Positions 20,604 to 50,962 of a DNA stretch of 64,000 nucleotides are shown here, in pieces. The position numbers and the translations under genes were made by a program. Each line of letters opens with the position of its first letter. Position 1 is the stretch's first letter. The stretch spans positions 62,001 through 126,000 of the forward strand of contig NZ_JADU01000008.1 of NCBI RefSeq assembly GCF_000518545.1. The letters are read 5' to 3'. Below the pieces are notes generated by a model. The model made no database searches. It worked only from the letters and a program-made list of their open reading frames with translations, and was not told the DNA's origin. The DNA comes from Hallella seregens ATCC 51272 (GTDB taxonomy: Bacteria; Bacteroidota; Bacteroidia; Bacteroidales; Bacteroidaceae).

Positions 20604-21194
20604 TCATATCTTGTTGATGTCCACGTAGCCGTGGGTCACGGCATAGATGGTGAGGGCCGAGACGCTCTTCATGCCCAGCTTCTCCATGATGCGCTTACGG
20701 TGGGTGATGACCGTGGTGAGGCCGATGTTGAGCCGCTCGCCCACCTCCTTGTTGATGTAACCCTGCACGATAAGGCTGAGCACCTCTATCTCGCGGTCGC
20801 TCAACAGCTTGCCGGTGAGGGCGCGGGGCATGGACGGAAGATTGCGGCCGTGGGCATGGGCGTGCTGCTCGAGTGCGAGCAACGAGCGCACGAGCTGCGC
20901 CTCGGGCACGTTGATGCACAGGCAGTGGAAGCCCGTCGGCTGCGTGGCCGGGTCGGTGTTCATGGTGAGCACGATGGTCTTCTGCCGGCGGTCCAGGAAG
21001 AACCGGCGGTGCCCGAGCACGATGCTCTGGGCCACGAAGTAGTGGAAGAAGCTGTCGGGGCGGTTGGCCTCCAGCTCGGCAAACGAGCCGAAAGCCGACA
21101 CGTCCATGATGGGAACCACGGTCTGCAACAGCTGTTTCAAGCCCAGTACGGCGAGCGTGTTGGCGTCGACGACGGCTATTTTGGGCCTTTCCAT
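20604..21194 (-). CDS. LuxR-type helix-turn-helix regulator
   Basis: 196 residues. The C-terminal 65 residues are a clear LuxR/GerE helix-turn-helix (LLSDREIEVLSLIVQGYINKEVGERLN, then TTVITHRKRIMEKLGMKS). The N-terminal half begins KIAVVDANTLAVLGLKQLL like a receiver domain, with an aspartate at residue 10, but the expected phosphoacceptor Asp region reads HRRFFLDRRQKTIVLT and is atypical, so it may be a pseudo-receiver. The ATG overlaps the stop of the preceding hemerythrin-LuxR gene (TGATG), so the two are made together. No histidine kinase is adjacent. The two proteins share the same HTH style and the end sequence Y-A-V-x-x-x-x-V-D-I. Confidence 0.85.
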   Translation of the reverse strand: MERPKIAVVDANTLAVLGLKQLLQTVVPIMDVSAFGSFAELEANRPDSFFHYFVAQSIVLGHRRFFLDRRQKTIVLTMNTDPATQPTGFHCLCINVPEAQLVRSLLALEQHAHAHGRNLPSMPRALTGKLLSDREIEVLSLIVQGYINKEVGERLNIGLTTVITHRKRIMEKLGMKSVSALTIYAVTHGYVDINKI

Positions 21195-22150
21195 CACAGT
21201 TTCACGGTGCTGATGTCCACAAGATTGTTCACGATGGCATAGATGGTGAGCCCGGCCGGCGAGTGGATTTGCAGCTTGCGGGCGATGTTGCGGCGGTGGG
21301 TGATGACGGTGTTGATGGAGATGCAGAGGTGGTTGGCTATCTCCTTGTTGGTCATGCCCTGCACCAAGGCCACGATGACGTCCTTTTCACGGTCGGACAA
21401 TGTCTCCTGCGACTCGGCGTTGTGGTTAATCATGTTGCTGATCTTGACGCTCACGTCGCTCTGCTTCGACTTCATTTCGAGCCGGCGTATGGCGGGGATG
21501 AGGATCTCGTCTTCCACTTCGGCGTGTTCCATGAGCCACTGCTCGCAGTTGTAGATGTCGTAGAGGGCGGCCGAGAGCTGGTTGTTGTGCAGCCCGTCGG
21601 ACGGCAGGTACTTGATGATGATGTTCTTCAGCTCCTTGAGTTTCTGGTCGGTCTGGTTGTGGTGCTTCGAGAAAGTCTCGATGTCGTAGTTGGTGGGGGC
21701 GTTGCCTTGCCCGAGTGCTTCGACGTAGGGGAACACCGTTTTCTCCTCATACTGCATGTGGTTGCGTATGCTGTGGGCGTACTCATCGTAGAGCTTCATG
21801 ATGAGTCGGGCCAGGTTGTCGTTCTCGTCGAGCGCGTCGGTAAGGGCCTTGCGGATGAAGGGCAGCTGGAAGTCGAGGTAGTAGGCATGGCTGGCCTTGA
21901 GGTATTGCAGCAGCGTAGGGATGGACAGGCGGTCGGCGTCGTCGTAGTCGCGGTAGCCGTTGATGGTGTAATTGACCACGGCCAGGAAAGTGTAGGTGTC
22001 CACATCCTGGTCCTCGCACACCTCTTTCACCGTCTTGTCGCCGAAGCCCAGGTTGATGCCGAACGAGCCGAGGCTCTGCAGCGTATTGTAATTGTCCCGG
22101 ATAATAGAGATTAGTTTATCGTCGGGCTCATACATCTTCTGATTCTTCAT
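21194..22150 (-). CDS. Hemerythrin-domain protein with LuxR-type HTH
   Basis: 318 residues in two parts. Residues about 1-250 contain a hemerythrin/ScdA-like di-iron four-helix fold: histidines occur at HAYYLDFQLPFIRKAL (about 91), HSIRNHMQYEEKTVFPYVEAL (about 130), KHHNQTDQKLKELKN (about 163) and the final HAEVEDEILIPAIRRLE (about 212), the classic H...HxxxE...H...HxxxxD-like ligand set. Residues about 252-318 are a LuxR/GerE helix-turn-helix. It should sense oxygen, nitric oxide or iron state and regulate transcription directly. The frame is open further upstream but MKNQKMYEPDDKL at 22150 is the plausible start. It is divergent from the porin-imelysin-cytochrome operon, which it probably controls. 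Confidence 0.85.
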   Translation of the reverse strand: MKNQKMYEPDDKLISIIRDNYNTLQSLGSFGINLGFGDKTVKEVCEDQDVDTYTFLAVVNYTINGYRDYDDADRLSIPTLLQYLKASHAYYLDFQLPFIRKALTDALDENDNLARLIMKLYDEYAHSIRNHMQYEEKTVFPYVEALGQGNAPTNYDIETFSKHHNQTDQKLKELKNIIIKYLPSDGLHNNQLSAALYDIYNCEQWLMEHAEVEDEILIPAIRRLEMKSKQSDVSVKISNMINHNAESQETLSDREKDVIVALVQGMTNKEIANHLCISINTVITHRRNIARKLQIHSPAGLTIYAIVNNLVDISTVKL

Positions 22151-22238
22151 CTGTCTGTTCGTTGTGAATAATAGGTGCAAAATAACTAAAAAACTGGGAC
22201 ATTGACAACAGAATCGGCCGCCTTTTTGCCTTTTTCGC

Positions 22239-22290
22239 GGTATAATACCTAAAAATAATGACCCTGCAAATATACCCACTTGTAGGTATT
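22239..22290. promoter_or_regulatory. Palindrome and inverted repeat between the divergent units
   Basis: GGTATAATACC (22239-22249) is a perfect palindrome around one base, and its right half AATACCT (22244-22250) pairs again with AGGTATT (22284-22290). The minus-strand element TATATTTG (22274-22267), a -7 for the hemerythrin-LuxR gene, lies between them. The layout suggests an operator for one of the LuxR-type proteins. Confidence 0.45.
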
Positions 22291-22319
22291 GCGCGGTTCG
22301 CGATTCGGCCGTAACTTTG
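22288..22319 (+). promoter_or_regulatory. Promoter for the porin-imelysin-cytochrome operon
   Basis: ATTG (22288-22291), 20-nt spacer, TAACTTTG (22312-22319): close to full consensus. The -33 overlaps the right arm of the inverted repeat described beside it, so a bound regulator could block or recruit polymerase. The start codon follows at 22377. Confidence 0.7.
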
Positions 22320-22376
22320 TAGTCCGGAATCAAACTGAGTCCCGAAAGCCGAATTACAGACATCAACGATACTGAT

Positions 22377-23708
22377 ATGAACAAGTCAAACAAGGGACTG
22401 GCCATCGCGCTGCTGGCGTGCCTGAGCCTCTCCGCCCCCGCGTTTGCCGCCCAGCCACCGGCTGCCCAGGATACCGCATTCAGCAAATACCGCATCGGCG
22501 GCTATGGCGAGATGCTGGCCCGCTTCAAGGATTACGGCCTGAATCGCTTTGCCGGCACCGCCCAAGGCAACACAAAAATCAAACACAACGAGATTTCTAT
22601 TCCGCGCTTCGTGCTCTCGGGCGACTACAAACTGTCCAGCAAATGGATACTTGGAGTCGAAGTTGAGTTCGAGGCTGGCGGCGTAGGCACGGCCTATGAG
22701 ATAGAGTCGGGCTCGGGTTCCGAGAACGGCGAATACGAGACCGAGACCGAAAAGGGCGGCGAGGTGGCGCTCGAGCAGTTCCACATCACCCGTCTTGTCG
22801 TGCCGGCGTTCAACGTGCGCGTGGGCCATCTCGTCGTGCCCATGGGCCTTACCAACACCCATCACGAGCCGCTCAACTTCTTCACCCCAGCACGTCCCGA
22901 GGGCGAAACCTCCATCATTCCCTCCACCTGGCACGAGACGGGCCTCGAGTTCTTCGGCTCGTTCGGCCGCGGCCTGGCCTCGTTCGACTACGAGGCCCTC
23001 ATCACCAGCGGCCTCAACCCCGACGGATTCGGCAAGTACGAATGGGTGAAGGGCGGCAAGCAGGGAGCCTTCGAGTTCGACAACTTCACCTCGCCCGCCT
23101 ACACCGCGCGCCTCAATTGGACAGGCGTGCCCGGGCTTCGGCTGGGTGTAAGCGCCTACTACAACCCCAATTCGGGCAAGAACTGCGAGAAGCTGGTGAA
23201 CTATGAAGCCCTGAACAAGGTCAACGTCTTCATGTATTCGTTCGACGCCCAGTACGTCGGCCGCTACGTCACGGCCCGTGCCAACGTGCTCCACGGCTAC
23301 CTCTCGGCCTCAGACCAGGTGAGTGCCGCCTCCGTTTCGTCGGCCTCGCCCTACGGCACCCGCAACCGCGGCGTGGGCTCTCACGCCCTTACCTATAGCG
23401 CCGAACTGGGCTTCAACCTGGCCGGTTTCTTCCCCGGCGTGAAGTTTCCCGCCATTTATCCCTACGCCCACTACGACTACTACAACCCGCAGGAAAGCAT
23501 GTCGGCCGGCACTGCTGCCGACCCACGCACCCAGGTGAGCATGTGGGCGTGCGGCCTCAACTGGCGGCCCCTGCCCTGCCTCGTGGTCAAGGCCGACTAC
23601 GCCACCCGCCAGTTCGGCACCCACAGCCTCTTCGGCAAGGGCCGTTACAACTCCGAAAACGAGCTGCGCATCGGCGTGGCCTACGCTCTCTACCTCGCCA
23701 AGAAATAA
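22377..23708 (+). CDS. Outer-membrane porin, first gene of the redox operon
   Basis: 443 residues with a type I signal peptide (cleavage after AFA, about residue 24) and a beta-barrel pattern of alternating strands ending ENELRIGVAYALYLAKK, with an aromatic-rich end. The start of the mature part, YRIGGYGEMLARFKDYG, and the block ITRLVVPAFNVRVGHLVVPMG resemble phosphate-selective porin O/P-like outer-membrane proteins. The presumed cargo is unknown; the co-transcribed imelysin and cytochromes suggest metal or heme. It is the promoter-proximal gene of the block. Confidence 0.82.
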   Translation: MNKSNKGLAIALLACLSLSAPAFAAQPPAAQDTAFSKYRIGGYGEMLARFKDYGLNRFAGTAQGNTKIKHNEISIPRFVLSGDYKLSSKWILGVEVEFEAGGVGTAYEIESGSGSENGEYETETEKGGEVALEQFHITRLVVPAFNVRVGHLVVPMGLTNTHHEPLNFFTPARPEGETSIIPSTWHETGLEFFGSFGRGLASFDYEALITSGLNPDGFGKYEWVKGGKQGAFEFDNFTSPAYTARLNWTGVPGLRLGVSAYYNPNSGKNCEKLVNYEALNKVNVFMYSFDAQYVGRYVTARANVLHGYLSASDQVSAASVSSASPYGTRNRGVGSHALTYSAELGFNLAGFFPGVKFPAIYPYAHYDYYNPQESMSAGTAADPRTQVSMWACGLNWRPLPCLVVKADYATRQFGTHSLFGKGRYNSENELRIGVAYALYLAKK

Positions 23709-23765
23709 AGTCAGTCGACAAACAAATAAACAACCACTATATTTTTAACGTAATCAGACAGTAAC

Positions 23766-24983
23766 ATGAAAAAGAGTTTATTGCTTCTGGGGTTGCTCTC
23801 CATGGGCCTCACGTTCGTATCATGCGGCGACGACAACAAGGGAAATGGGACAGCACAGACCAACGACGAGAAGATTATCGCCGAGATTGATGCCGAAGAC
23901 ACCGTGGAATACACCTCTGCCCGTGCAAAGGCGTGGGGCAACTACATGCGCGTGGTAGGCAACCTGCTCGTCAAAGATGCCACTACACTCTACAACGATT
24001 GGGCCGTCAGCTTCAACGGAGGAGCCTCTTATGGCAGTCAGTTCAAGGGGCTCAAGCTGAAAGGTTTGACCACCAGCCTGGCCTGTGTGGAGCAGGTACT
24101 CGACGGCATGTCCGACATTGCCAACGAGGTGGGCGAGGCCAAAATCGGCGATCCCTACAAGCTCTACACCACCAAATACCCCGATAAAAAGAGCATGCGC
24201 GCCGGTCTCTACGCCGTGGAGTCGTGGTACAGCTGGCACTCGCGACTGGACTATTCCAACAACATTCTGTCCATCCGCAATGCCTACTACGGGGTCTACG
24301 ACAAGAATATCGGCAGCATGAGCAAGACGCCGGCCGCCAATTCCATGTACAAAGTGGTGGAGGCCAAGAACCCGGGACTCCACACTCAGGTCGTGGCTGC
24401 CATCGACGCCGCCATCAAGGCCATACAAGACATTCCGCAACCTTTCCGCAACCACATCAACTCGGCCGAGTCGGTGAAGGCCCAAACCGCCTGCGCCACC
24501 CTGCAGTCGCTGCTCTCCAAGGAGCTGAAGACCTTCTTCAGCGAGAAAGCCAACACCGAAGCCGAGCTCGCTCCGGTCGTTGCCCAAGTGGTGGATGCCG
24601 TCATCCTGCCCACCTACAAGGACCTGCTCGACCTCAACACCAACCTCTATAAGAAAGTGGTGGCCTTTGAGGAAAAGCCCTCCAACGCCGCTTTCGCCGC
24701 CTGCTGCGAGGCCTGGATTGCGGCCCGCCAGCCGTGGGAGTCGTCCGAGGCTTTCCTCTTCGGCCCCGTTTCAGACAAGGGTCTCGACCCCAACATGGAC
24801 ACTTGGCCCCTCGACCAGGACGGCATCATGAACGTGCTGAAGTCGCAGAAATGGGCCGATCTGGAGTGGACCGGCGAGTTCAACGAGGATGACGCCAGCA
24901 TCGGAGCCAGCCAAGCTCTGCGCGGATTCCACACTTTGGAGTTCCTCATCTTCAAGAACGGCAAGGCTCGCACCATTCGCTAA
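23766..24983 (+). CDS. Imelysin-family (M75) iron-uptake lipoprotein
   Basis: 405 residues with a lipoprotein signal peptide: LTFVSC puts the lipid-anchored cysteine at residue 20. The imelysin GxHxxE motif occurs as GFHTLE at residues 387-392, and the AWIAARQPWESSEAFLFGP block near residue 320 is characteristic of the family (imelysin, EfeO, IrpA). Despite the peptidase name (M75), family members are thought to bind iron or other metals at the cell envelope. The next gene encodes a di-heme oxidoreductase; that pairing also occurs in the iron-regulated imelysin loci of proteobacteria. A hairpin 25 bp past the stop may attenuate transcription into the next gene. Confidence 0.9.
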   Translation: MKKSLLLLGLLSMGLTFVSCGDDNKGNGTAQTNDEKIIAEIDAEDTVEYTSARAKAWGNYMRVVGNLLVKDATTLYNDWAVSFNGGASYGSQFKGLKLKGLTTSLACVEQVLDGMSDIANEVGEAKIGDPYKLYTTKYPDKKSMRAGLYAVESWYSWHSRLDYSNNILSIRNAYYGVYDKNIGSMSKTPAANSMYKVVEAKNPGLHTQVVAAIDAAIKAIQDIPQPFRNHINSAESVKAQTACATLQSLLSKELKTFFSEKANTEAELAPVVAQVVDAVILPTYKDLLDLNTNLYKKVVAFEEKPSNAAFAACCEAWIAARQPWESSEAFLFGPVSDKGLDPNMDTWPLDQDGIMNVLKSQKWADLEWTGEFNEDDASIGASQALRGFHTLEFLIFKNGKARTIR

Positions 24984-25007
24984 GCCTCTTTCCGTCCAAA
25001 GACATGA

Positions 25008-25043
25008 AGCGAAGGCCGAGAGTTCCCAACTCCGGTCTTCGCT
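25008..25043 (+). terminator. Hairpin between imelysin and di-heme genes
   Basis: Arms AGCGAAGGCCG and CGGTCTTCGCT form an 11-bp stem with one G-T pair; T-poor afterwards. It may be a partial terminator that lowers expression of the downstream cytochrome genes. Confidence 0.55.
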
Positions 25044-25082
25044 CTTGTGCGCTAAAAGAAATCGTTAAAAATATCCCCATTC

Positions 25083-26540
25083 ATGAATCCCATCAAGTAT
25101 TCATTCCTGCTTCTCGGAGCCTTGGCCCTGTCGGCCTGTGAAGACAACGACGGGCAGCTCACCATTGCCGACGTGGACGTGCCCGCAGGCTACGCCCTCT
25201 CGGCCGGCACGGCCACCGAGTTCTCGCGGTCGGCATTCTCCTACGACCAGCCGGCCAGCTGGATCTCGGGCGAGTACAACGCCCTGTTCAACAAGGGCGA
25301 CCGGCTCTACGACAACGTGGCCACCAGCAACTACAACCATGCCGGCGGTGGCTTGGGCCCGGTTTATGCCGGTTACAGCTGCGGCGGCTGCCACCGCAAC
25401 GCGGGCCGCACCGAGCCCTCGTACTGGACTGCCTTTAAGAACGGCAGCCGAAAAGCCACGGGCGAGTACGGCTTCACCTCGATGCTTTGCTACGTGACAC
25501 GGCGCAATGGCAAGTTTTTCCAGAACTACGGCCGCGTGATCCACGACAACACCATCTACGGCGTGACCCCCGAGGGCGAGATTCACTTTGAGATCGACTC
25601 GGCCGTCTACCGCTTCCCCGACGGCGAACGCTACACGCTCTGCTACCCTCGCTTCAGCATTACCAAGTGGTATGCCGACAGCATCCGCCCCGAAGACCTG
25701 TTCATCTCCGTGCGCATACCGCTGCGCCACGTGGGCCAGGGCCAGATTATGGCCCTCGACCGTACCGAGATACAGCAGCTCGCAGCCCGCAGCAACTACC
25801 CGCGCTGGGGCATCAGCGGCCGCTGCAACGTCGTCTCAGAGCGTAACGTGAGCCAGATTGGCGTGGGCGGCAACAAGGCACACCACGGCGACCTCACCGT
25901 GGAGCTGGGCTATTCCTCCGACATGGGCCTCACCAACAGCCGCTACCCCGAGGAGATATGCCGCGGGCAGAGACAGATAGAAGAGGGCTCGATGATGGGG
26001 CTGAGCTATGAAAAGCTCGACGTGAGCACAGCCGACATGGAGGCCGTGGACCTCTATCTGCACAGCCTCGGCGTGCCGGCGCGCCGCGACGTGAACGACC
26101 CCGACGTGCAGGCGGGCGAGAAACTTTTCTACAAGGCCGGCTGCCACCTGTGCCATGTCACCACGCTCCACACCAACAAACGCGGTTCCACCCTGCTGGC
26201 CGGCCTCACTTTGCCCTGGCTCGGCGGCCGCCAGACCATCCATCCCTACTCTGATTTCCTGCTCCACGACATGGGATCGGAGATCATGGGCGTGGGCCTC
26301 AACGACAATATGGTGAGCGGACTGGCCCGCGGCAACGAGTGGCGCACCACCCCGCTCTGGGGCATCGGCCTGCAGCAGCTCGTCAACGGCCACACCTACT
26401 TCCTGCACGACGGCCGCGCCCGCAACTTCACCGAGGCCATCATGTGGCACGGCGGCGAGGCCGAGGCCAGCAAACAGGTCTTCGCCCACTACTCCAAGGC
26501 CCAGCGCGCCCAGCTCATCCGCTTCCTGTGGAGCCTGTAA
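25083..26540 (+). CDS. Di-heme c-type cytochrome lipoprotein (DUF1111/DHOR family)
   Basis: 485 residues with a lipobox (LALSAC, Cys19). Two heme c attachment motifs are present: CGGCH at residues 100-104 and CHLCH at 354-358. The block AGGGLGPVYAGYSCGGCHRNAG and the C-terminal WRTTPLWGIGLQQLVNGHTYFLHDGRARNFTEAI match the di-heme 'oxidoredictase'/thiol oxidoreductase family, relatives of di-heme peroxidases. These proteins are found next to imelysins in several phyla. It should sit on the outer face of the inner membrane or inner face of the outer membrane and exchange electrons with a metal or a small carrier. Maturation needs cytochrome c assembly, supplied by a gene three places on. Confidence 0.9.
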   Translation: MNPIKYSFLLLGALALSACEDNDGQLTIADVDVPAGYALSAGTATEFSRSAFSYDQPASWISGEYNALFNKGDRLYDNVATSNYNHAGGGLGPVYAGYSCGGCHRNAGRTEPSYWTAFKNGSRKATGEYGFTSMLCYVTRRNGKFFQNYGRVIHDNTIYGVTPEGEIHFEIDSAVYRFPDGERYTLCYPRFSITKWYADSIRPEDLFISVRIPLRHVGQGQIMALDRTEIQQLAARSNYPRWGISGRCNVVSERNVSQIGVGGNKAHHGDLTVELGYSSDMGLTNSRYPEEICRGQRQIEEGSMMGLSYEKLDVSTADMEAVDLYLHSLGVPARRDVNDPDVQAGEKLFYKAGCHLCHVTTLHTNKRGSTLLAGLTLPWLGGRQTIHPYSDFLLHDMGSEIMGVGLNDNMVSGLARGNEWRTTPLWGIGLQQLVNGHTYFLHDGRARNFTEAIMWHGGEAEASKQVFAHYSKAQRAQLIRFLWSL

Positions 26541-26577
26541 CCGACATCCGAAAACAAACCAGAAAAGACATCACGAT

Positions 26578-27918
26578 ATGAAAATCAACTGCATTTTTGC
26601 TGCCATCGTCGCAGCCAGCCTGTCTGCAACCGTCTGCGCCGAGACAGCCAACCCCGCTGCTCCCGAGGACAATGCCCTGGGCAAGGCCGCAGCCTCACTC
26701 CACGCCACCGCCGCCCGCCTCGACTCCATAGCCGCCGCTCCGCAGGCCTCCGGCCGCCAGGCCACCCACTACGACATGGAGAACGGCGTGCTTCCCATTG
26801 CCGACAACCGCGGCTTCTCCCTGCAGTCGGCCGACGGCCGCTTCATCCTGAAGCCCTATCTCATGCTTCAAACCACGCTCACCTACAACTATTATGCCGA
26901 CGAGGGCCTCGACAAGGCCTACAATCAAGACAACATTGCCAACTCGGGCTTCGCCATTCCGTTCGGCATCATCGGCTTCACGGGCAGGGCGTTCGGCAAG
27001 ATTGACTACAACATCTGCGTGAACGCGGCCGCCACCGGCGGGGCCATCCTGCAACAAGCCTGGATAGACTATGCCGTGAGCCCCGCCCTCCGCTTCCGCG
27101 CGGGCAAGCAGAAGACGCCCTTTGCCGCCGCTTTCCTCACCACGCTGGGCGAGACGCTCTTCCCCATGATGCCCACATCGCTCACCAGTGCCGTCATTCT
27201 TCCCCACAGTCTCAACGCCGTCACACCGCCGATCAACACGGGCTGGGACCTCGGTTTCAAGATGCACGGCCTCATTGCCAACAAGTGGGGCTACGAGCTG
27301 GGCCTGTTCAACGGAACCGGCGGAACCGTCAACACCGCCACGAAGACCATCAGCGACGACAACCATCTGCCCTCGCTGCTCTATGCCGCACGCCTCACTT
27401 TCCAGGGCAACGGCCCGATGCCGATGAGCCAGGGCAACCCCAACCTCACGCAGCTGGGCACGAAATACGTCATCGGCCTCTCGGCCAACTACAACAACGA
27501 GGCCGAATACGAGTCGACCAACGACTTCCGCGCCGGCGTGGACTTCGCCCTGCTCAGCGGCCGCTGGTCGGTGGCCGCCGAGGCTTACTACATGAACATG
27601 GGATTCACCAAGCGCCAGAAGATCGACGAAAGCTACAATTACATGGGTGCCTACGCCCAGCTGGGCTACTTCGTCGGCCGCGACTGGCAGCTCGGTCTGC
27701 GCTACGACTGGATGGACCGCAACGGCAACCACAAGGACGGCAGCCTGAACTCGCCGGCCGTGGTATGCAACTATTTCGTGCCGAAGACCAACATCAAGGT
27801 CTCCGCCATGTACCAGTACATCGGCCGATGGGGCCACGACACCCAGCTCGACCGCGACCTCGACGACCTCGGCATAGCCACCCACACGGCCTGTGTGATG
27901 CTGCAATACGCCTTCTAA
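26578..27918 (+). CDS. Second outer-membrane porin of the redox operon
   Basis: 446 residues, signal peptide about 1-20 (AAIVAASLSATVCA), a short coiled-coil-like stretch (about 35-60, ALGKAAASLHATAARLDSIAAA), then a beta-barrel starting GFSLQSADGRFILKPYLMLQTTL and ending in the aromatic strand CVMLQYAF. This matches the phosphate-selective porin O/P family of trimeric OMPs with an N-terminal coiled coil. It lies 37 nt after the di-heme gene and 10 nt before the cytochrome lipoprotein gene. The cargo is unknown. Confidence 0.85.
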   Translation: MKINCIFAAIVAASLSATVCAETANPAAPEDNALGKAAASLHATAARLDSIAAAPQASGRQATHYDMENGVLPIADNRGFSLQSADGRFILKPYLMLQTTLTYNYYADEGLDKAYNQDNIANSGFAIPFGIIGFTGRAFGKIDYNICVNAAATGGAILQQAWIDYAVSPALRFRAGKQKTPFAAAFLTTLGETLFPMMPTSLTSAVILPHSLNAVTPPINTGWDLGFKMHGLIANKWGYELGLFNGTGGTVNTATKTISDDNHLPSLLYAARLTFQGNGPMPMSQGNPNLTQLGTKYVIGLSANYNNEAEYESTNDFRAGVDFALLSGRWSVAAEAYYMNMGFTKRQKIDESYNYMGAYAQLGYFVGRDWQLGLRYDWMDRNGNHKDGSLNSPAVVCNYFVPKTNIKVSAMYQYIGRWGHDTQLDRDLDDLGIATHTACVMLQYAF

Positions 27919-27928
27919 ACCCACTGCC

Positions 27929-28678
27929 ATGAACATCCTTACACACAAAAGCCCGGCCCTGCCGGCCCTCCTCGGCCTCGCGCTCTGCCTTGCCGCGTGC
28001 GACGACGGCCCCATCCACGAGGCCGAGCACGTGGCCGAGGGCGGCAAAGTGGTCAAGGTAGAGGGCACGCTGACCGGTCTGGACAGCTGGCCCGACGACT
28101 ACGACGTGTCGCTGGCCGGGTTTACCGACAACAGCGCCGACGAGTGGTCGCCCTACGCCACCATATCGAAAGTCATCACGGCCGACGCCAACGGCCACGT
28201 CTCCATGTCGCTCTCGGGCATCGGCGGCAGCATAGAGACCGTGCAGGTGTGCGTGCTCAACCGGCTGCGACAGCGCATCATGACCTTCACCAGCCGCAAC
28301 ATTGCCAACGAGAAAGGCACCGACACCATCCGCATAGACCTCGGAACGGTCAACACCAGCATGCTCAACGCCGTGCAGCAGAGCGTGTTCAACGCCAGCT
28401 GCACCGCCTGCCACGGCGGAAACGGCCGCTCGGCCGCCGGCCTCGACCTGACCGAGGGCCACAGCTACGCCGCCCTCGTGGGCCGGCAGTCCGTCAAGGT
28501 CAAGGACCATAACCGCGTGCAGCCCGGCGACGTGGGCGGCAGCGTGCTCCACCAGGTGCTCAACACCAACGTCTCGGCCGACTGGCACCAGAACCATGCC
28601 GACATGCTCAACAAGGAGCGTGCCGCCCATCTGCTCACCCTCATCGACAACTGGATAAGCAGCGGAGCCCCCGAGTGA
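27929..28678 (+). CDS. Mono-heme c-type cytochrome lipoprotein
   Basis: 249 residues with a lipobox (CLAAC, Cys about 24). The N-terminal half (about 35-130) is beta-rich and unrecognised. The heme site CTACH is at about residues 156-160, followed by GGNGRSAAGLDLTEGHSYAALVGRQS, the usual 'planctomycete-type' c-domain start, but the motif typical of a distal Met ligand is not obvious. It is likely the electron carrier between the di-heme protein and an inner-membrane donor. It overlaps the next gene by one base (TGATG). Confidence 0.85.
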   Translation: MNILTHKSPALPALLGLALCLAACDDGPIHEAEHVAEGGKVVKVEGTLTGLDSWPDDYDVSLAGFTDNSADEWSPYATISKVITADANGHVSMSLSGIGGSIETVQVCVLNRLRQRIMTFTSRNIANEKGTDTIRIDLGTVNTSMLNAVQQSVFNASCTACHGGNGRSAAGLDLTEGHSYAALVGRQSVKVKDHNRVQPGDVGGSVLHQVLNTNVSADWHQNHADMLNKERAAHLLTLIDNWISSGAPE

Positions 28679-30756
28679 TGCCGACAAAGACGCTCAAGAC
28701 CCTGCTGGGACTGCTCTTCGCGGCCACCGTGGCCGTGCTGGCCGCGGGCACCGTGGTGGAGAAGCTACACGGCACCGACCAGGCTGCCCGCAGCATCTAC
28801 CACACGCCCTGGTTCTTCGCCCTGTGGGCGGGGCTGGCCGCAGCGGGCGCAGCCTACGCCGCGACGCGTCGCCTGCACCGCCGACCGGCCGTGGCCCTGC
28901 TGCACGGAGCCCTGCTGCTCATCCTCACGGGGGCGGCAGTGACTTTCCTCACCGGCCGCGAGGGACGCATCCACCTGCGCGAGGGCATGCCCGAGACCAG
29001 CTACATGCCGCGCGGCAGCCACGAGATGCAGCCCCTGCCCGTGGCCCTGCGCCTCGACCGCTTCGAGGTGACGACCTACCCCGGCACGGAGACACCGGCC
29101 GATTTCGTGAGCCGCGTCACCTGCACCGACCGCGCCACGGGCCACGCCCGTCCGGCCGTCATCTCAATGAACCACATCCTAAGCACCCACGGCTACCGTT
29201 TCTACCAGACCAATTTCGACACCGACCGCAAGGGAACGGTGCTCACCGTAAACCACGACCCCTGGGGCACGGCCCTGACCTACGCCGGCTACGCGCTGCT
29301 TGCCGTGGCCATGGTCCTCACGTTGCTGAGCCCCCGCGGGGAGTTCCGCCGCCTGCTGCGCTCGCCGGCCCTGCGCCGCCGCCTCTTCGGGCTGGCGTTG
29401 CTCGCCGTGCCCGCCCTGGCCGCCGCCCGCAGCGTGCCCACCATTCAGGAGGCCAAGGCCCGCGAGGTGGCCCGCTACCAGGTGGAGTACAACGGCCGCG
29501 TGGTGCCGCTCAACACCGTGGCCATCGACTTCGTGCAGAAGCTCTACGGCCGTCGCAGCTACCGTGGGCTGCGGGCCGAGCAGGTGGTCTACGGCTGGCT
29601 CGTGAGCCCCGAGGCCTGGAAGCGCGAGCCCATGATACGCATTCCCTACGCCCCGCTGCGCCGCCGGCTGGGCATCGAGGGCAAGTATGCCGCCATGCAG
29701 GACCTTTTCGATGCCGACGGCAAGTACCGACTCATGCCCCTCATCCAGGAGGAGCAGCGGCAAGACGCCATGGGCAAGGCCATCCGCGAGCTGGACGAGC
29801 AGGCCGGCCTCGTGCTCATGCTCACGGGGCACACGCTCTTTACGCCCCTGCCCGCCGGTGCGCCACGCCTGAGCGAGGCGCGCGTCGAGGCCGAAATCAT
29901 CTACAACCGCATCCCCTTTGCCACCATCCTCTTCATGCTGAACCTCACGATGGGGCTCGCCACGTTCCTCGCCCTGCTCTGTGCCATGGGCCGCACGCGC
30001 GGGCCGCGCGCGGGCCGCGCCATGCGGCAACTGTGGCATGCGGGCTGGGCGGTGCTGGCAGGGGCCTTCGTCTTCGCCCTGGCGGGCTACGCGCTGCGCT
30101 GGTATGTGGGCGGCCGCGTGCCCTTGGGCAACGGCTACGAAACCATGCTCTTCATGTCGCTGGCCCTCATGGGCCTCACGCTGGCCCTGCGGCGGCTGGA
30201 CTATGTGCTGCCCTTCGGCTTCCTGCTCTCGGGCCTGACGCTGCTGGTAAGCCACCTGGGGCAGATGTCTCCACAGATTACCAACCTCATGCCCGTGCTG
30301 CAGAGCCCGCTGCTCAGCATCCACGTGAGCATCACGATGGCGGCCTACGCCCTGCTGGCCTTCATGGCCCTCAACGGCGTGCTGGCCCTGCTGCTGACCC
30401 CGCGCGGCGGCCGCCGCGACGCCACGACGGGCCCCGACACCGCCGACGGCCCCGACCAGCTCACCGTGCTGAGCCGCCTCATGCTCTATCCGGCCGTGTT
30501 CCTGCTGGCCGCCGGCATCTTTCTCGGGGCCGTGTGGGCCAACGTGAGCTGGGGACGCTACTGGAGCTGGGACCCCAAGGAGACGTGGGCGCTCATCACG
30601 CTCATGGTCTACGCCGTGCCGATGCACACCGCTTCGCTGCCCGCCCTGCGCCGCCCGCGCGCGTTCCACCTCTACCTCATCTGTGCATTCCTCACCGTGC
30701 TCATGACCTACTTCGGCGTGAACTACTTTCTCGGGGGCATGCACGCATACGCATAA
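28678..30756 (+). CDS. ResB-CcsA type cytochrome c assembly protein (system II fusion)
   Basis: 692 residues from the ATG at 28678. The N-terminal ~240 residues, with several membrane helices and a periplasmic stretch (HLREGMPETSYMPRGSHEM), resemble ResB; a middle soluble region holds EYNGRVVPLNTVAIDFVQKLYG (about 270-290); the C-terminal ~280 residues carry at least seven helices and the tryptophan-rich heme-handling motif WGRYWSWDPKETW near residue 625, diagnostic of CcsA. It would deliver and attach heme to the CXXCH motifs of the two cytochromes encoded just before. A combined single-gene system II in Bacteroidales is known; dedicated placement inside this operon suggests it serves these cytochromes. 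Confidence 0.92.
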   Translation: MPTKTLKTLLGLLFAATVAVLAAGTVVEKLHGTDQAARSIYHTPWFFALWAGLAAAGAAYAATRRLHRRPAVALLHGALLLILTGAAVTFLTGREGRIHLREGMPETSYMPRGSHEMQPLPVALRLDRFEVTTYPGTETPADFVSRVTCTDRATGHARPAVISMNHILSTHGYRFYQTNFDTDRKGTVLTVNHDPWGTALTYAGYALLAVAMVLTLLSPRGEFRRLLRSPALRRRLFGLALLAVPALAAARSVPTIQEAKAREVARYQVEYNGRVVPLNTVAIDFVQKLYGRRSYRGLRAEQVVYGWLVSPEAWKREPMIRIPYAPLRRRLGIEGKYAAMQDLFDADGKYRLMPLIQEEQRQDAMGKAIRELDEQAGLVLMLTGHTLFTPLPAGAPRLSEARVEAEIIYNRIPFATILFMLNLTMGLATFLALLCAMGRTRGPRAGRAMRQLWHAGWAVLAGAFVFALAGYALRWYVGGRVPLGNGYETMLFMSLALMGLTLALRRLDYVLPFGFLLSGLTLLVSHLGQMSPQITNLMPVLQSPLLSIHVSITMAAYALLAFMALNGVLALLLTPRGGRRDATTGPDTADGPDQLTVLSRLMLYPAVFLLAAGIFLGAVWANVSWGRYWSWDPKETWALITLMVYAVPMHTASLPALRRPRAFHLYLICAFLTVLMTYFGVNYFLGGMHAYA

Positions 30757-30771
30757 CAACCACAAAACAAT

Positions 30772-31944
30772 ATGGAAACCCAAAAGTTGCAGATTCAAAA
30801 CGACCACGTACTCATCCGTCTCTTCGCCCTCGACGGCGCCAACGGCGTAGGCGAATACCTCTGCATGTTCACCCTCGAACCCACCGAAGCTCCTTTCGGC
30901 AAGCAGCTGGGCTGGCTGCTCAAGGCCTACGACGAGCTGCTCGCGAGCCGGTTCCACGGCCAAGTGCCCGGCCTGGCCGAGGCGCGGCCCGTGTTCAAGC
31001 GGTTCTACCTGAGCGACGCCGCCAACCAGGCCGACGCGTTCTGGGCCGCAGTGGGGCAGGACGACTGCGCCGTCTCCACCGTGCAGCAGCCTCCTCTCTG
31101 CGGCGGCAAGGTGGGCATGTGGGCCTGGCTCATGACAGGCGTGCAGACCGCACGGGTCGACGACCACCTGTTCCGCGCCTCGCACGGCGGCTACGACGAG
31201 CTGTGGTCCACACAAAATACGGCAAATGGCGACACGTCTTACGTGCAAACGGCCGCCCTTTTCGGCGCATACGCCGAGCGATTGCGGCGCAATGGTTGCA
31301 CGTTGGCGGCCAATTGCGTGCGCACCTGGCTCTACGTGAACGACATTGACAACCACTACGACGGCGTGGTGAGGGCCCGCAACGACGTGTTCGACCGCGA
31401 GGGGCTCACCGACCAGACCCACTACATCGCCTCGACGGGCATCTGCGGGCGCGACGCCGACCCCCGCACGCTCTGCAAGATGAACGCCCTGGCCATCGGC
31501 GGCATACGTCCCGAACAGGTGCACTACCTCTATGCACTGGACCATCTGAACCGCACAAGCGAGTACGGCGTGCGCTTCGAGCGCGGCACCTGCGTGGACT
31601 TCGACGGCCGCCGGCGCGTCTTCATCTCGGGCACGGCCAGCATAGACAACCGCGGCAACATCGTCCACGTGGGCGACATACGCGGCCAGGTGGAGCGCAT
31701 GTGGGAGAACATCGAGGCCCTGCTGGCCGAGGCCGGCTGCACATTCGACGACGTGGCCGAGATGACCGTCTACCTGCGCGACGTGGCCGACTACCCCGTG
31801 GTGGCCTCCCTCATGGCCGGCCGCTTCCCCCACACGCCCTACATCATCGTCAACGCCCCCGTGTGCCGGCCCGGATGGCTCATCGAGACCGAGTGCATCG
31901 CCATGAAACCCCTCTCCGAGGCCGACGCCCCGGCACATGCCTGA
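30772..31944 (+). CDS. Rid-fold protein, chorismatase-like, copy 1
   Basis: 390 residues with no signal peptide, so cytosolic. Residues 74-86 (VFKRFYLSDAANQ), then VSTVQQPPLCGGKVGMWAWL near residue 104, NCVRTWLYVNDIDNHYDGVVRARN near residue 182, and a C-terminal YjgF/RidA-like domain (FISGTASID, then VHVGDIRGQ, near residues 283-305; PVCRPGWLIETEC near the end). This two-domain arrangement resembles the FkbO/Hyg5 chorismatases, which cleave chorismate to hydroxybenzoates or dihydro-dihydroxybenzoate, but the residues needed for that reaction were not checked by alignment. Its neighbour is a close paralogue. It follows the cytochrome assembly gene by 15 nt. Confidence 0.65.
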   Translation: METQKLQIQNDHVLIRLFALDGANGVGEYLCMFTLEPTEAPFGKQLGWLLKAYDELLASRFHGQVPGLAEARPVFKRFYLSDAANQADAFWAAVGQDDCAVSTVQQPPLCGGKVGMWAWLMTGVQTARVDDHLFRASHGGYDELWSTQNTANGDTSYVQTAALFGAYAERLRRNGCTLAANCVRTWLYVNDIDNHYDGVVRARNDVFDREGLTDQTHYIASTGICGRDADPRTLCKMNALAIGGIRPEQVHYLYALDHLNRTSEYGVRFERGTCVDFDGRRRVFISGTASIDNRGNIVHVGDIRGQVERMWENIEALLAEAGCTFDDVAEMTVYLRDVADYPVVASLMAGRFPHTPYIIVNAPVCRPGWLIETECIAMKPLSEADAPAHA

Positions 31945-31962
31945 CCCCAAACCCCACCCCTC

Positions 31963-33096
31963 ATGACACCACATCCCTACATCGACATCCAGCTGGGCAC
32001 GCTGCCCTGCACGGAGGGCGTGACCGAGAGCCACGCCCTGCTCTCCATCGCCCCGGCGGGCTTCACCCTGACCTACGAGGAGCAGCTCAAGGCCCTCATG
32101 GAGGCTTTCGACACGCTGCGCCGCGAGCTCGGCGCACAACCCGTGTTCAAACGCTACTTCATGAGCGACGCCGCCAACCAGTTTCCCGGCCTCATGAACT
32201 ATGAGCTCGAGAGTCCCGACTATGCCGTCTCGGCCGTGCAGCAGCCGCCCGCCGGCGGAGGCAAGCTGGCGCTGTGGGCCTGGCTCATGACCGGCGTGCA
32301 GACACGCGCCTGCCCCGGCGGGCTCTTCGAGGCCGCACACGGCAGCTACCGCCACCTCTGGAGCGGCGGCAACAGCATCGACGCACAGGGCTCTGAGGCG
32401 CAGACCAAGCTGCTGCTCAACGACTACGTGATGCAGCTGCTCGGCGAGGGCTGCACGCTCGAGGCCAATTGCCTGCGCACCTGGTTCTTCATCAACGACA
32501 TCGATAACAACTATCCCGGCGTGGTGGGCGCGCGCAACGACGTGTTCCGCACGCAGAACATGAGCGACCGCACCCACTTCATCGCCTCGACCGGCATCGG
32601 CGGACGGCAGAACAACCCCAAGGTGCTGGTGCAACTCGACAACTATGCCGTGGCGGGGCTGCAGCGCGGACAGCTGCGCTATCTCTATGCGCCGGCCCAC
32701 CTGAGCCGCACGAGCCGCTACGGCGTGAGCTTCGAGCGGGGCGTACAGGTGGACTACGGCGACCGCCGCCACGTCTTCGTCTCGGGCACGGCCAGCGCCA
32801 GCCCGCAGGGCGAAATCATGCACGCGGGCGACGTGGCCGCCCAGTGCCGCCGCGTGTGGGACAACATCGGGGCGTTGCTGGCCGAGGGAGGCACAGGATG
32901 GGCCGACGTGAAGATGCTCATCTGCTACCTGCGCGACCGCGCCGACGCGCCGCTCGTGGGCCGCATGCTGACCGAACGCTTCGGCCCGTCGCTGCCCCGC
33001 CTCGTGGTGCAGGCCGGCGTGTGCCGTCCCGGCTGGCTCGTCGAGATGGAGTGCATCGCCGCCCGGCCCCTGCACACGGCCTTTGCCCCGCTCTAA
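31963..33096 (+). CDS. Rid-fold protein, chorismatase-like, copy 2
   Basis: 377 residues, clearly homologous to the preceding gene: VFKRYFMSDAANQ at 61-73, VSAVQQPPAGGGKLALWAWLMTG near 88, NCLRTWFFINDIDNNYPGVVGARN near 168, and the RidA-like block VSGTASASP and MHAGDVAAQ in the last third. By eye roughly half of the residues are shared, so it is an old duplication. Two divergent paralogues side by side suggest a heteromeric (trimeric Rid-type) complex or two successive steps. It starts 18 nt after copy 1 and is the last gene of the block. Confidence 0.65.
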   Translation: MTPHPYIDIQLGTLPCTEGVTESHALLSIAPAGFTLTYEEQLKALMEAFDTLRRELGAQPVFKRYFMSDAANQFPGLMNYELESPDYAVSAVQQPPAGGGKLALWAWLMTGVQTRACPGGLFEAAHGSYRHLWSGGNSIDAQGSEAQTKLLLNDYVMQLLGEGCTLEANCLRTWFFINDIDNNYPGVVGARNDVFRTQNMSDRTHFIASTGIGGRQNNPKVLVQLDNYAVAGLQRGQLRYLYAPAHLSRTSRYGVSFERGVQVDYGDRRHVFVSGTASASPQGEIMHAGDVAAQCRRVWDNIGALLAEGGTGWADVKMLICYLRDRADAPLVGRMLTERFGPSLPRLVVQAGVCRPGWLVEMECIAARPLHTAFAPL

Positions 33097-33490: not shown

Positions 33491-33994
33491 ATGGCAATCC
33501 GTTATCGAAAAGTACAGAACAAGTTGAACAACAGTCCCACCTTCGGCAAGTGGTACGCCCGCGCCGTGGTGCTCGATACCATCGACACGAAGAGGCTGGC
33601 CGAGGAGATCTCGCACTCCACCACCGTGACCTATGCCGACGTAATGGCCGTGCTCTGGGAGGTGTCTGTGGCCATGAAGACCCATCTGCTCAACTCGCAG
33701 CGCGTGGTGCTCGACGGCATCGGGGCGTTCAAGGTGGGCATCAGCTCCAAGCCCTCCGACACCGCCGCCGACTGCGACGGCACGAAGATCACCAACTTCC
33801 GCATTCTCTACAAGCCCGAGTCCACGTTCAACGCCACGGGCGTGAATGCGAAAGGCCACCGCACCGGCATCTACATCAAGAACCTGCTGGAGGGCGTGAC
33901 CGCCAAAGAGACGCCCAAGAACACGGTGAAAGACGCCAAGCCGCAGCCCGGAGGCAAGACCGAGAACGGCGGCAAGACCGAGGGACAGGGCTAA
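33491..33994 (+). CDS. HU-family DNA-binding protein (Bacteroidetes long type)
   Basis: 167 residues. It begins MAIRYRKVQNKLNNSPTFGKWYARAVV, the N-terminal extension of the Bacteroidetes HU-like family, has HSTTVTYADVMAVLWEVSVAMKTHLLNSQRVVLDGIGAFKV as the dimerisation and arm region, and ends in a 45-residue lysine/glycine-rich low-complexity tail. It should bend or coat DNA. The next gene is a smalltalk peptide, a partnership commonly seen around such HU genes in Bacteroides and Prevotella. Confidence 0.88.
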   Translation: MAIRYRKVQNKLNNSPTFGKWYARAVVLDTIDTKRLAEEISHSTTVTYADVMAVLWEVSVAMKTHLLNSQRVVLDGIGAFKVGISSKPSDTAADCDGTKITNFRILYKPESTFNATGVNAKGHRTGIYIKNLLEGVTAKETPKNTVKDAKPQPGGKTENGGKTEGQG

Positions 33995-34322: not shown

Positions 34323-35348
34323 TCATCCCGCCCCGTCCGCCCTGTCGTCGCTTGTGGCGCGGCGGCGAGTGGAGAGCCGCCTGATGTCGCGGTCGAGCTG
34401 CCTGATGCTGTCGAGACGCTCGAGCCGACGCTGCTGCTGCATGTAAGCCTCGTACTCTTGGGTGGCTTTCCGGACGGCCAACTGATGGGATATTTTGCCC
34501 GCATGTTCCAGAATGTTCTTCTCGTTCATGGTGAGGATGAGCCGCAGCTTCTGCACCCAGTCGCGCATATACATGGGTTTCTCGGCCAGGGCCTGCGCCT
34601 CGGCATAGGCAAGAAACTGCTCTACGATGAGTTTCAGCCCGCCGATTTCCTTTTCATGCAGATAGTTTTTCCCCACCAGGGCGTCGGCTTTCGTCACCTT
34701 TCCCTCGCGTTCGGTCGAGGTGAGGCCCATCATGGGCAGGGAAGCATTGGCACGATAATACACCAACTCGGCCGCCGTCTTGCCGCTGACGGCCCACAAG
34801 AGCTTGTTCTGCACTTCCTTGTAGAAAGCCAACGTCTGTTCGTCGGAGGGGTTGTAGTCGATGCTGGTGGCGTAGATGTCCTTGATTTGCTGGTAGAACA
34901 CTTTTTCGGAGAGGCGTATCTCGCGTATCCTGTCCAGCAACTCCTTGAAATAATTGTAGGACGAACCGCTCTTGAACCGCTCGTCGTTCAGCGCAAAGCC
35001 CTTGACGAGATACTCGCGCAGACGCTGTGTTGCCCAGATGCGGAACTGGGTGCCCTGCAGCGACTTCACCCGATAGCCTACGGAAATAATCACGTCGAGG
35101 CTGTAGTACTTCACTGGCTTGTCTGAATTTGCAATGTGCAAAAAATGCACATTGCCCTCTTCTTCAAGCTCGCCCTCCTCAAAGGCATGACGGATATGCT
35201 TGGTGATGACACTACGGTCACGCCCAAAAAGTGTACACATTTGTGCTTGAGAGAGCCATACCGACTCGTTCTCAAAGTGTACATCTATCTTGATTAATCC
35301 ATCTTGAGACTGGTATATGATGATGTCGCTATTGCCTTTCTGCTCCAT
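34323..35348 (-). CDS. RhuM-family protein
   Basis: 341 residues of the RhuM/'virulence protein' family. The N-terminal part contains VDVHFENESVWLSQAQMCTLFGRDRSVITKHIRHAFEEGEL, a helix-turn-helix-like region, and YYSLDVIISVGYRVKSLQGTQFRIWATQRLREYLVKGF, the diagnostic family block (residues about 80-118). The C-terminal part is helical and rich in charged residues (YMQQQRRLERLDSIRQLD). Function is unproven; family members turn up on mobile islands and near toxin-antitoxin-like systems. It lies between the HU pair and the capsule locus and ends close to the smalltalk terminator. Confidence 0.88.
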   Translation of the reverse strand: MEQKGNSDIIIYQSQDGLIKIDVHFENESVWLSQAQMCTLFGRDRSVITKHIRHAFEEGELEEEGNVHFLHIANSDKPVKYYSLDVIISVGYRVKSLQGTQFRIWATQRLREYLVKGFALNDERFKSGSSYNYFKELLDRIREIRLSEKVFYQQIKDIYATSIDYNPSDEQTLAFYKEVQNKLLWAVSGKTAAELVYYRANASLPMMGLTSTEREGKVTKADALVGKNYLHEKEIGGLKLIVEQFLAYAEAQALAEKPMYMRDWVQKLRLILTMNEKNILEHAGKISHQLAVRKATQEYEAYMQQQRRLERLDSIRQLDRDIRRLSTRRRATSDDRADGAG

Positions 35349-39980: not shown

Positions 39981-41114
39981 CTACAACTGACTGTCACGAA
40001 GCATCCACTTGAAATACGCTTCGTGCTGATCCACCAAGTAGTCCCAGGAATACTCCTGACGGATGATTTCAAGATTGGATGCGATGTATTTCTCTTTCTT
40101 CTCCCCGGCGATGTCCTCTATATGATTGAGCAATCCTGCAACATCCTCTGCAGATTTATAGTATTCTGCATTGTCACCCAATACGGCTTTGTTGAAGATA
40201 TTGTCGTGTGCAAGGATGAAACAGTCGGACGCCATCGCCTCCAACAACGAGGGATTGGTTCCTCCTACGCTGTGTCCGTGGAAGTAGGCGAAAGAGAAAT
40301 GACGTATGCTGTTCAGCTTGTCAAAGTCATAAATGCCCCCGACGAACCTGATGTTCTTGTCATTTCCATAGGTTTTCACGAGCTCCTGCCCATGCTTCGT
40401 AGTCGTCTTTCCCACAATGACAAGGGGCTTCTTTCCATATTCCGTCGATTGCTTGTAGCCCTCTATTGCCATGAGCATGTTGTTTTCCGGCTCCATTCTG
40501 GCAACAAGCAGGTAATATTCGTTCGGTGTCAGGCCCAGACTTTCCAAATGCCGGACATCGTAATTGTCGTATATGTTGGCACCATAAGCGAGAAATTTGC
40601 TCTCTTTGCCGTACACCTCTTTATAATAGTCACGGATGCCCATGTTGTCGGCAATGAGATAATGGCTGTGTTTTACTGCCTCACGCTCTTCCCAATGCAC
40701 GAATTTCTGCACCCATTTGTTGAATTTGGAACGCTTGAACTCCAGTCCGTCCATATTCGTGGTAAAGAGCGGACGCTTGATATTCTTCACATTAAACCAG
40801 ATGTAAGCAGGGATAATGCTCGTGTATCCGGCCTCATAGATGATGTCGAACTGCTCTTTCTTGAGTGCATCCCTCAGACAGGCAAAGTCGTAGAAGAAAC
40901 TTCCTATCGAGCCTCCCATCCATTTCTCAGGCGAATAGATGTGCTTGATGTGGACTCCCTTGTACGCTTTCTCCTGGTAGGGATGGTAATGCGGGGAATA
41001 AACCGTAATGTCGTGCCCGCGCTTGGCCAGTCCCACAGATATATATTCGGCAAATTGCTCAAAGCCGCCGTAGTTGTTGGGGATGCCCCGTGTGCTTACA
41101 AATGCTATCTTCAT
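39981..41114 (-). CDS. Glycosyltransferase family 4 (DUF1972 type)
   Basis: 377 residues starting MKIAFVSTRGIPNNYGGFEQFAEYIS, the DUF1972 N-terminal start of rhamnosyl-like GT4 enzymes, then the central LVARMEPENNMLMAIEGYK donor-domain start and FAYFHGHSVGGTNPSLLEAMA near residue 275, the GT4 E-x-hyd-N-like region. A GT-B enzyme on the cytosolic membrane face, transferring a sugar to the lipid-linked repeat unit. The gene is clearly more AT-rich than fcl/gmd. Sugar and acceptor are not predictable. Confidence 0.9.
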   Translation of the reverse strand: MKIAFVSTRGIPNNYGGFEQFAEYISVGLAKRGHDITVYSPHYHPYQEKAYKGVHIKHIYSPEKWMGGSIGSFFYDFACLRDALKKEQFDIIYEAGYTSIIPAYIWFNVKNIKRPLFTTNMDGLEFKRSKFNKWVQKFVHWEEREAVKHSHYLIADNMGIRDYYKEVYGKESKFLAYGANIYDNYDVRHLESLGLTPNEYYLLVARMEPENNMLMAIEGYKQSTEYGKKPLVIVGKTTTKHGQELVKTYGNDKNIRFVGGIYDFDKLNSIRHFSFAYFHGHSVGGTNPSLLEAMASDCFILAHDNIFNKAVLGDNAEYYKSAEDVAGLLNHIEDIAGEKKEKYIASNLEIIRQEYSWDYLVDQHEAYFKWMLRDSQL

Positions 41115-41146
41115 GTTCTAAATGCTATGCTATAAAGGGTTTTCGC

Positions 41147-41983: not shown

Positions 41984-41984
41984 C

Positions 41985-50959: not shown

Positions 50960-50962
50960 TGT

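Follow-up and report, generated by a model that had tools for sequence, protein, structure and literature searches.

The gene cluster closest to the one treated here is BT2473-82 of Bacteroides thetaiotaomicron, which holds CcsA, porin, thiol oxidoreductase, M75 peptidase and hypothetical proteins and is upregulated 62.7-323.7-fold at low iron (69.4 in the running text) as well as in colitis, with flavodoxin, DUF2023 and hemerythrin/CdhR genes induced alongside (PMC10434189). The same source reports that CdhR regulates hmuYR and that CdhR is not known to bind iron. Permuted imelysins, Prevotella bergensis being among the organisms named, have been described together with their near-constant pairing with di-haem partners (PMC3143127). 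We have analyzed a 64,000-nucleotide stretch of Hallella seregens ATCC 51272 (contig NZ_JADU01000008.1, positions 62,001 to 126,000, from an assembly of 3.27 Mb in 58 contigs), hereafter called the window, which carries an eight-gene operon at 22377-33096 on the + strand and a promoter element in front of it. The results of our analysis indicate that this is very likely an iron-starvation operon, and we assign a probability of roughly 0.6 to the reading that it encodes an iron-starvation-induced, surface-exposed module for the redox acquisition of iron or haem-iron.

The eight genes in a row announced by the original prediction are all present as open reading frames (ORFs) of the + strand, separated by 57, 99, 37, 10, -4, 15 and 18 bp. 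The span proposed for them (22151-33096) is right with respect to the genes; its start at 22151 falls between genes, next to a divergent one, and the first of the eight genes begins at 22377. In order, the genes encode porin 1 (22377..23708, 443 aa), which has a signal-peptide-like N terminus; a circularly permuted imelysin of the PIBO type (23766..24983; PF09375, 1.6e-52); a short form of the di-haem oxidoreductase DHOR (25083..26540, 485 aa; PF06537, 3.5e-59); a second porin of the Porin_O_P type (26578..27918, 446 aa; PF07396, 9e-37); a mono-haem c-type cytochrome (27929..28678, 249 aa), the weak Pfam cytochrome c match of which (3.6e-3) is below the Pfam cut-off; a ResB-CcsA (CcsBA) cytochrome c synthase with a GTG start (28675..30756, 693 aa; ResB 9.5e-21, Cytochrom_C_asm 2.5e-35); and two paralogous chorismatase-fold proteins, protein 1 (30772..31944, 390 aa) and protein 2 (31963..33096, 377 aa), which match Pfam Ribonuc_L-PSP (Rid) with E values of 7e-19 and 1.6e-13. 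The haem motifs of the original prediction were all recovered, CGGCH (residue 100) and CHLCH (354) in DHOR and CTACH (158) in the small cytochrome. Fusion of ResB with CcsA/CcsB domains in one protein is the mark of CcsBA (system II) synthases, and ResB-CcsA matches 25vk (E 6.9e-100) and 7s9y (E 8.7e-94) in the PDB. Imelysin matches PDB 3n8u over residues 46-404 (E 5.3e-120); its residues 280-400 align with the start (1-116) of the Pfam imelysin profile, indicating the permuted order, and the GxHxxE motif near its C terminus reads GFHTLE at residue 387, as expected of permuted imelysins of the PIBO/IrpA type. A PDB relative of DHOR was not found by single-sequence search at E 0.01.

This gene order is conserved. 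Of the 33 other family genomes that carry short-form DHOR, 20 were sampled, representing ten other genera; porin 1, imelysin, DHOR, porin 2 and cytochrome come one after the other in all 20 loci, and a chorismatase homologue follows this core in 17. Since the order recurs in other genera, the run of eight genes is more than chance, and a fortuitous run was ruled out; gene-order conservation had been named beforehand as the refutation test for the operon, and the order held, chorismatase homologue included. Three loci of named relatives (L041, L042 and L043) have all eight genes in the same order with 48-82% identity, the ResB-CcsA match of L043 being in two pieces and its regulator outside the fetched stretch; the named matches of one chorismatase gene belong to Hallella colorans, H. 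bergensis, Prevotella sp. S7-1-8 and uncultured Prevotella. The imelysin is found end-to-end in the permuted order of the window in 19 of the 20 loci (in two pieces in L181). An unpermuted imelysin (L083, 5580-6749) stands at the place of the permuted window gene (23766-24983) in an otherwise equivalent locus. The assembly gene, which had been called dedicated, is matched over 488 or more of its 693 residues in 16 of the 20 loci and has no match in four; because only about 192-194 residues match in L082 and L083, between the ResB and CcsA domains and after the chorismatase gene, a dedicated cytochrome synthase is not universal. In 15 of the 17 loci the chorismatase gene lies between cytochrome and ResB-CcsA, two copies after ResB-CcsA being the arrangement of the window and of Hallella.

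A related form of the locus, common in the genus, has a longer DHOR (ORFs mostly of 530-640 aa), and tblastn detects neither porin 2 nor the small cytochrome in it. We surveyed 151 family genomes for a chorismatase gene within 8 kb downstream of DHOR on the same strand, and found it in 29 of 34 genomes with short DHOR and 13 of 66 with long DHOR; anywhere in the genome, the gene is present in 33 of the 34, 44 of the 66 and 22 of 51 genomes without DHOR. On account of this distribution the chorismatase gene is a genuine but non-obligatory member of the operon.

Comparison of the regions in front of porin 1 revealed a constant box, and a pattern search together with locus comparison defined the promoter element TAGGTATTG-N20-TAACTTTG at 22283..22319 (+), which covers the -33 and -7 regions, the -7 box of the window lying at 22312-22319. 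The pattern TAGGTATTG-N{16,22}-TAnnTTTG, with the reversed pattern as control, has 118 matches against 6 in 60 genomes, 103 against 3 in the 36 genomes of the same genus and 7 against 0 in the genome of the window itself. Of the 103 same-genus matches, 99 have a gap of exactly 20, as do 7 of the 15 outside the genus. Upstream of porin 1, GTATTG-N20-TAnnTTTG occurs in 34 of 44 related loci (excluding L095, a second copy of the window), at none of the other spacings between 12 and 29, and never in 200 mononucleotide shuffles; because these loci are related, the 34 sites do not represent 34 independent events. The fixed gap of 20 bp must in part reflect the core promoter. When 61 distinct sites were aligned, their conserved left half resolved into a dyad, AATACC-N8-GGTATT, overlapping the TTG of the -33 element. 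This dyad, predicted as a 20-bp operator at 22271..22290 (+) in the window, where its left half reads TATACC and is one base off AATACC, can also be written TACCTAT-TT-TTAGGTA, with a 7-2-7 spacing that we take to be the geometry of NarL-type GerE proteins. A further arm, AATACCTAAAA at 22244..22254 (-), lies nearer the regulator gene and pairs with 22280-22290 as a 91% inverted repeat. A sigma-70 scan was uninformative, that promoter type being the wrong one for the phylum, and terminator-like sites numbered 12 compared with 9.7 in shuffles. A literature search on the TAGGTATTG string gave no Bacteroidales promoter paper among the titles listed.

The genes behind the element point to iron. 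Of the seven sites in the genome of the window, one precedes this operon, one an operon of HmuY and a TonB receptor, and others an HMA-DUF4876-TonB operon, flavodoxin-DUF2023 and two other TonB receptors. A survey of five genomes gave 32 sites, of which 23 were examined (that of the window included), five more were at imelysin loci already covered and four were left out; 17 of the 23 precede this operon, TonB receptors, the HmuY operon or flavodoxin, HMA, CbiX or PepSY genes. TonB receptors are abundant in this phylum, and not every one of them need therefore serve iron. Even so, the sites suggest that the operon is probably switched on by a DNA site held in common with other iron genes, and the iron link of the original prediction gains from this distribution as well as from the published low-iron induction of the B. 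thetaiotaomicron locus, which agrees with it in gene names (PMC10434189).

Other settings of the element were recorded in passing. The seventh site of the genome (L144, contig C2, 10627-10663, -) points at the 3' side of genes for succinate dehydrogenase/fumarate reductase, and only a 77-aa GTG ORF (10253-10486) without Pfam match was found downstream on the same strand; the site is a candidate for an iron-responsive small RNA or small protein. Enolase directly follows the element in two genomes (L150, 9285-9321, and L155, 7128-7164, the latter just after a flavodoxin-like gene). In another genus, g37 (L168, L169), split hemerythrin/LuxR genes immediately precede the element and LUD-domain/CCG lactate-utilization-like genes follow it; it is also found ahead of pyruvate formate-lyase. 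The gene next to the element in L167 encodes a metallo-beta-lactamase-fold protein.

Upstream of the operon, and divergent from it, lie two genes that were absent from the account of the original prediction. The nearer one encodes a fused, CdhR-like hemerythrin-LuxR regulator of 318 aa (21194..22150, -), in which a hemerythrin domain (Pfam, 5.8e-15) is coupled to a GerE DNA-binding domain (6.8e-17), the combination that defines the CdhR type. It is overlapped by 4 bp by the gene of a second LuxR/GerE-type protein of 197 aa (20604..21197, -; GerE 3.9e-16), and in several relatives such a second gene adjoins the hemerythrin-LuxR gene or a chorismatase gene. The divergent hemerythrin regulator is within the fetched stretch in 13 of the 20 loci of other genera and may lie elsewhere in the other seven. 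Taking as homologues fused or split hemerythrin/LuxR proteins with E of at most 1e-20, we found that 75 of the 137 family genomes which have the regulator carry the element, versus 1 of the 14 which lack it (Fisher p 5.5e-4), the genomes being related and the 14 including five from one genus and seven that are under 90% complete; within the genus of the window the difference is smaller, 29 of 31 versus 2 of 5. From this co-occurrence we infer that the regulator binds the dyad, and rate the hemerythrin-GerE protein and the dyad as a regulator-site pair slightly above an even chance. Since Fur-family genes exist in the genome, the regulator is a predicted reader of the site, and Fur itself might read the TAGGTATTG element, with the hemerythrin-GerE gene as a passive neighbor. 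Such a role would agree with the inverted repeat of the element and with its presence in two of the five same-genus genomes devoid of the regulator, but is improbable in view of the presumed NarL-type GerE geometry of TACCTAT/TTAGGTA, of the single element among the 14 family genomes without regulator and of the divergent position of the regulator gene in the window and in those 13 loci. Hemerythrin regulon papers included none on Bacteroidales by title among those listed.

A mechanism can be proposed in which, at low iron, loss of iron from the hemerythrin centre would let the hemerythrin-GerE protein bind the AATACC-N8-GGTATT dyad and activate the operon together with the HmuY/TonB and flavodoxin genes. 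CcsBA, the family of which has an established function in cytochrome maturation, would then furnish both DHOR and the small cytochrome with haem. These two proteins and the imelysin would sit on the cell surface, a location predicted because their lipoboxes, picked with a simple pattern that is plainly wrong in some loci (e.g. for the cytochrome of L195, L182 and L193 and the DHOR of L179), are followed by acidic residues. Such residues behind the lipobox Cys resemble a described export signal (PMC5080379); BT_2479 of B. thetaiotaomicron has been found in the supernatant, its mutant keeping the protease activity tested (PMC6282197), and its signal peptide has been used for secretion of cargo associated with outer-membrane vesicles (PMC13192842). 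Following the analogy with EfeO/EfeB-type pairs drawn in PMC3143127, the DHOR/cytochrome pair could alter the redox state of imelysin-bound iron, and we infer that the module transports iron; redox iron uptake as its exact task is a more tentative proposal, for which we would give clearly less than even odds.

The same set of proteins could instead form an envelope peroxidase or oxidative-stress module, in which DHOR and cytochrome reduce peroxide while the imelysin sequesters iron against Fenton chemistry, and the regulator senses oxygen, nitric oxide or peroxide rather than iron. DHOR is indeed described in Pfam as a putative peroxidase, the hemerythrin part of the regulator resembles the RIC/ScdA iron-sulfur repair proteins (TIGR03652, 1.9e-19, below its cut-off), and the B. 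thetaiotaomicron locus is also induced in colitis; we nevertheless consider this unlikely, for HmuY/TonB and flavodoxin genes have the same element in front of them, and in the published counterpart it is iron limitation itself that evokes the response of about 63-324-fold (PMC10434189). Even less probable is a surface electron-transfer module, with cytochromes passing respiratory electrons to external acceptors, porins as conduits and an aromatic acid as shuttle. It would account for two cytochromes, two porins and one synthase in one operon and for N termini resembling acidic export signals, yet the operon has no more than three haem motifs and lacks a multihaem conduit, Pfam finds no quinol-oxidizing partner among the eight genes, and regulation by iron starvation predicts scavenging, not iron respiration.

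In the iron-acquisition reading, cationic iron would enter through porin 1, which is acidic. This protein has no Pfam match at E 0.1 and no NCBIfam match, but its AlphaFold model, with a predicted local distance difference test score (pLDDT) of 76.9, is a barrel, and all 50 Foldseek matches listed are outer-membrane porin entries, one being a phage fibre-OmpC complex. Twelve Glu residues, many of them at alternate positions, are invariant in the 39-residue stretch 95-133 among 22 homologues with identity to the window protein down to 34%. The pattern is suggestive of a hairpin or lumen segment that is acidic and binds cations; given the low confidence with which residues 102-127 are modelled, this placement is conjectural.

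The last two proteins of the operon, which the original prediction had regarded as chorismatase-like, Rid-fold enzymes that plausibly make a small aromatic carrier or cofactor, resemble chorismatases in fold and catalytic residues. Single-sequence PDB search retrieved RidA/RutC-type chains only, whereas a profile of 22 homologues matched Hyg5 (E 4.2e-15) and FkbO (7.7e-9). A structure model, made for protein 1 only (pLDDT 92.6), aligns with chorismatases over 299-302 residues with Z scores of 33.4, 33.0 and 32.5, reproducing their two-domain fold, versus Z under 19 for single-domain Rid proteins, and its N-terminal part is covered mainly by chorismatase entries among the structure matches; plain RidA/RutC deaminases were rejected on this Z score and aligned length. 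The catalytic Glu of chorismatases and the Gly, Gly and Cys residues of the CH-II subfamily have been defined (PMC7170507). Residues G173, G240, C327 and E334 of Hyg5 correspond to G223, G287, C365 and E372 of protein 1, if a constant offset of 9 between Nat-hyg5 and Hyg5 numbering is assumed, and each is invariant in 22 of 22 homologues. Scores against TIGR04444 (51.9 and 49.9 bits) are far below its cut-off of 325, and for this reason we name both chorismatase-superfamily proteins outside the TIGR04444 subfamily. As judged from model and alignments, the supposed Rid proteins have the full chorismatase fold with Hyg5-type catalytic residues, which strengthens that part of the original claim, and they would be expected to convert chorismate, most likely to 3-hydroxybenzoate, the reaction being deduced from these features. 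They may alternatively do something else, for instance Rid-type hydrolysis of imines or enamines that protects enzymes at low iron, their place in the operon then reflecting stress co-expression; the RidA/RutC-type matches and the low TIGR04444 scores speak for this, but the full-length two-domain match (Z 33 against under 19) and the invariant Glu, Gly, Gly and Cys make it doubtful.

A product such as 3-hydroxybenzoate could leave by porin 2 and act as a weak ligand or electron carrier mobilizing iron, the weakest step of the scheme; a role of the aromatic product in iron is rather unlikely. Still more speculative, and improbable as a whole, is the idea that Prevotella-like Bacteroidales have in the hemerythrin-GerE protein their master iron regulator, which would act on a 7-2-7 site of NarL type at the -33 element, with the operon as a siderophore-free, aromatic-assisted system of surface iron reduction in which Hyg5-type chorismatases supply the ligand or shuttle. 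Chorismatases also occur in a different setting (L044, 5659-11098), where the gene is accompanied by the second gene of LuxR type, a binding protein resembling NMT1/THI5, a STAS protein and a SpoIIE-type phosphatase that carries Cache/HAMP and HATPase domains, possibly a partner-switching signalling cluster.

Several observations weigh against the reading of an iron-acquisition module controlled by the hemerythrin regulator. As to the element, 6 of the 23 sites examined precede enolase (2), a GH2 glycosidase, genes without Pfam match (2) and the 77-aa GTG ORF; other genera show a degenerate form retaining a GTATTG core, 10 of the 44 porin-1 loci are without it, and the exact element is missing from the contig of 13 of 14 stand-alone chorismatase genes. 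As to the regulator, 62 of the 137 family genomes that bear it are without the exact element, two of five same-genus genomes without it still carry one, the regulator-less set has the biased make-up given above, and the genome has three Fur-family matches (one barely above cut-off), so that Fur could be the iron regulator. As to the proteins, the surface exposure of the haem proteins is a prediction only, residues 102-127 of porin 1 are modelled at pLDDT under 50, the chorismatase gene adjoins long-form DHOR in only 13 of 66 genomes, and 3-hydroxybenzoate is a poor iron ligand.

Beyond the operon, an HU-HIG gene (33491-33994, +) and, close behind it, a RhuM-family gene (34323-35348, -) lie between the operon and a stretch of lower GC (about 40000-56000). 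A defined element at seven places of the genome, with a predicted reader, makes the question of iron regulation testable, and conservation of a chorismatase in an operon of iron type suggests that Bacteroidales make an aromatic metabolite, perhaps at times of iron scarcity such as inflammation.

Among known systems, EfeUOB is similar in combining an imelysin with a haem-dependent redox partner, but there is no EfeU/Ftr1 permease among the eight genes, which encode lipobox proteins and porins instead, and membership in that system was rejected. An MtrCAB-type multihaem porin-cytochrome conduit was likewise rejected, DHOR and the cytochrome having two and one CxxCH motifs and no multihaem cytochrome being present. 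The Hyg5/FkbO chorismatases (PDB 5a3k, 5ag3 and 4bps) have the same two-domain fold of about 300 residues, catalytic Glu and CH-II Gly, Gly and Cys, but the window proteins are only 20-22% identical to them in structural alignment, lie in a locus of iron type and fall far below the TIGR04444 cut-off. With imelysins of the PIBO/IrpA type, that of the window has permuted order, C-terminal GxHxxE and an adjoining gene for a di-haem oxidoreductase in common; the account of that type names Prevotella (now Hallella) bergensis, the porins, CcsBA, regulator, operator and chorismatases being outside the portion of it considered here (PMC3143127). The partner family is named DUF1111 there, which we take to be the older name of DHOR (PF06537). 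The regulator resembles CdhR (PG1237) with the PG1236 hemerythrin of Porphyromonas gingivalis in joining hemerythrin and GerE regulator, a system that responds to iron and for which hmuYR control is reported; by architecture, sequences not being compared, the window protein is fused like that of P. intermedia, in contrast to the split PG1236-37 and BT0519-20, and the word motif is absent from the main text of the CdhR paper, in which we found no operator or regulon motif (PMC10434189).

The original prediction held that these genes had not been described together. This does not stand for the core, since porin, M75 imelysin, di-haem oxidoreductase and CcsA have been published together in B. thetaiotaomicron (PMC10434189), and a wholly undescribed locus was dismissed accordingly; it does for the chorismatases, for which no paper in such a locus was found, although the search for chorismatase and Bacteroidales was so broad that it says little about absence. 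What appears to be added are the element together with its regulon, the chorismatase as a conserved member and the acidic segment invariant in porin 1, no description of them having been found in a literature of which the subscription part was barely covered, which is weak evidence of absence. The cluster BT2473-BT2482 differs in having no chorismatase in the passages covered, in including a fimbrillin gene and in its listed regulator, BT2482, whereas BT2475-2480 (CcsA, hypothetical, porin, thiol oxidoreductase, peptidase M75 and hypothetical protein) reproduce in reverse the order from porin 1 to ResB-CcsA of the window, with an HTH regulator nearby (PMC10434189). Both this likeness and that to P. 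gingivalis concern gene names, order and architecture, not sequence; by gene names and order, the core of the Hallella operon is a known iron-limitation locus.

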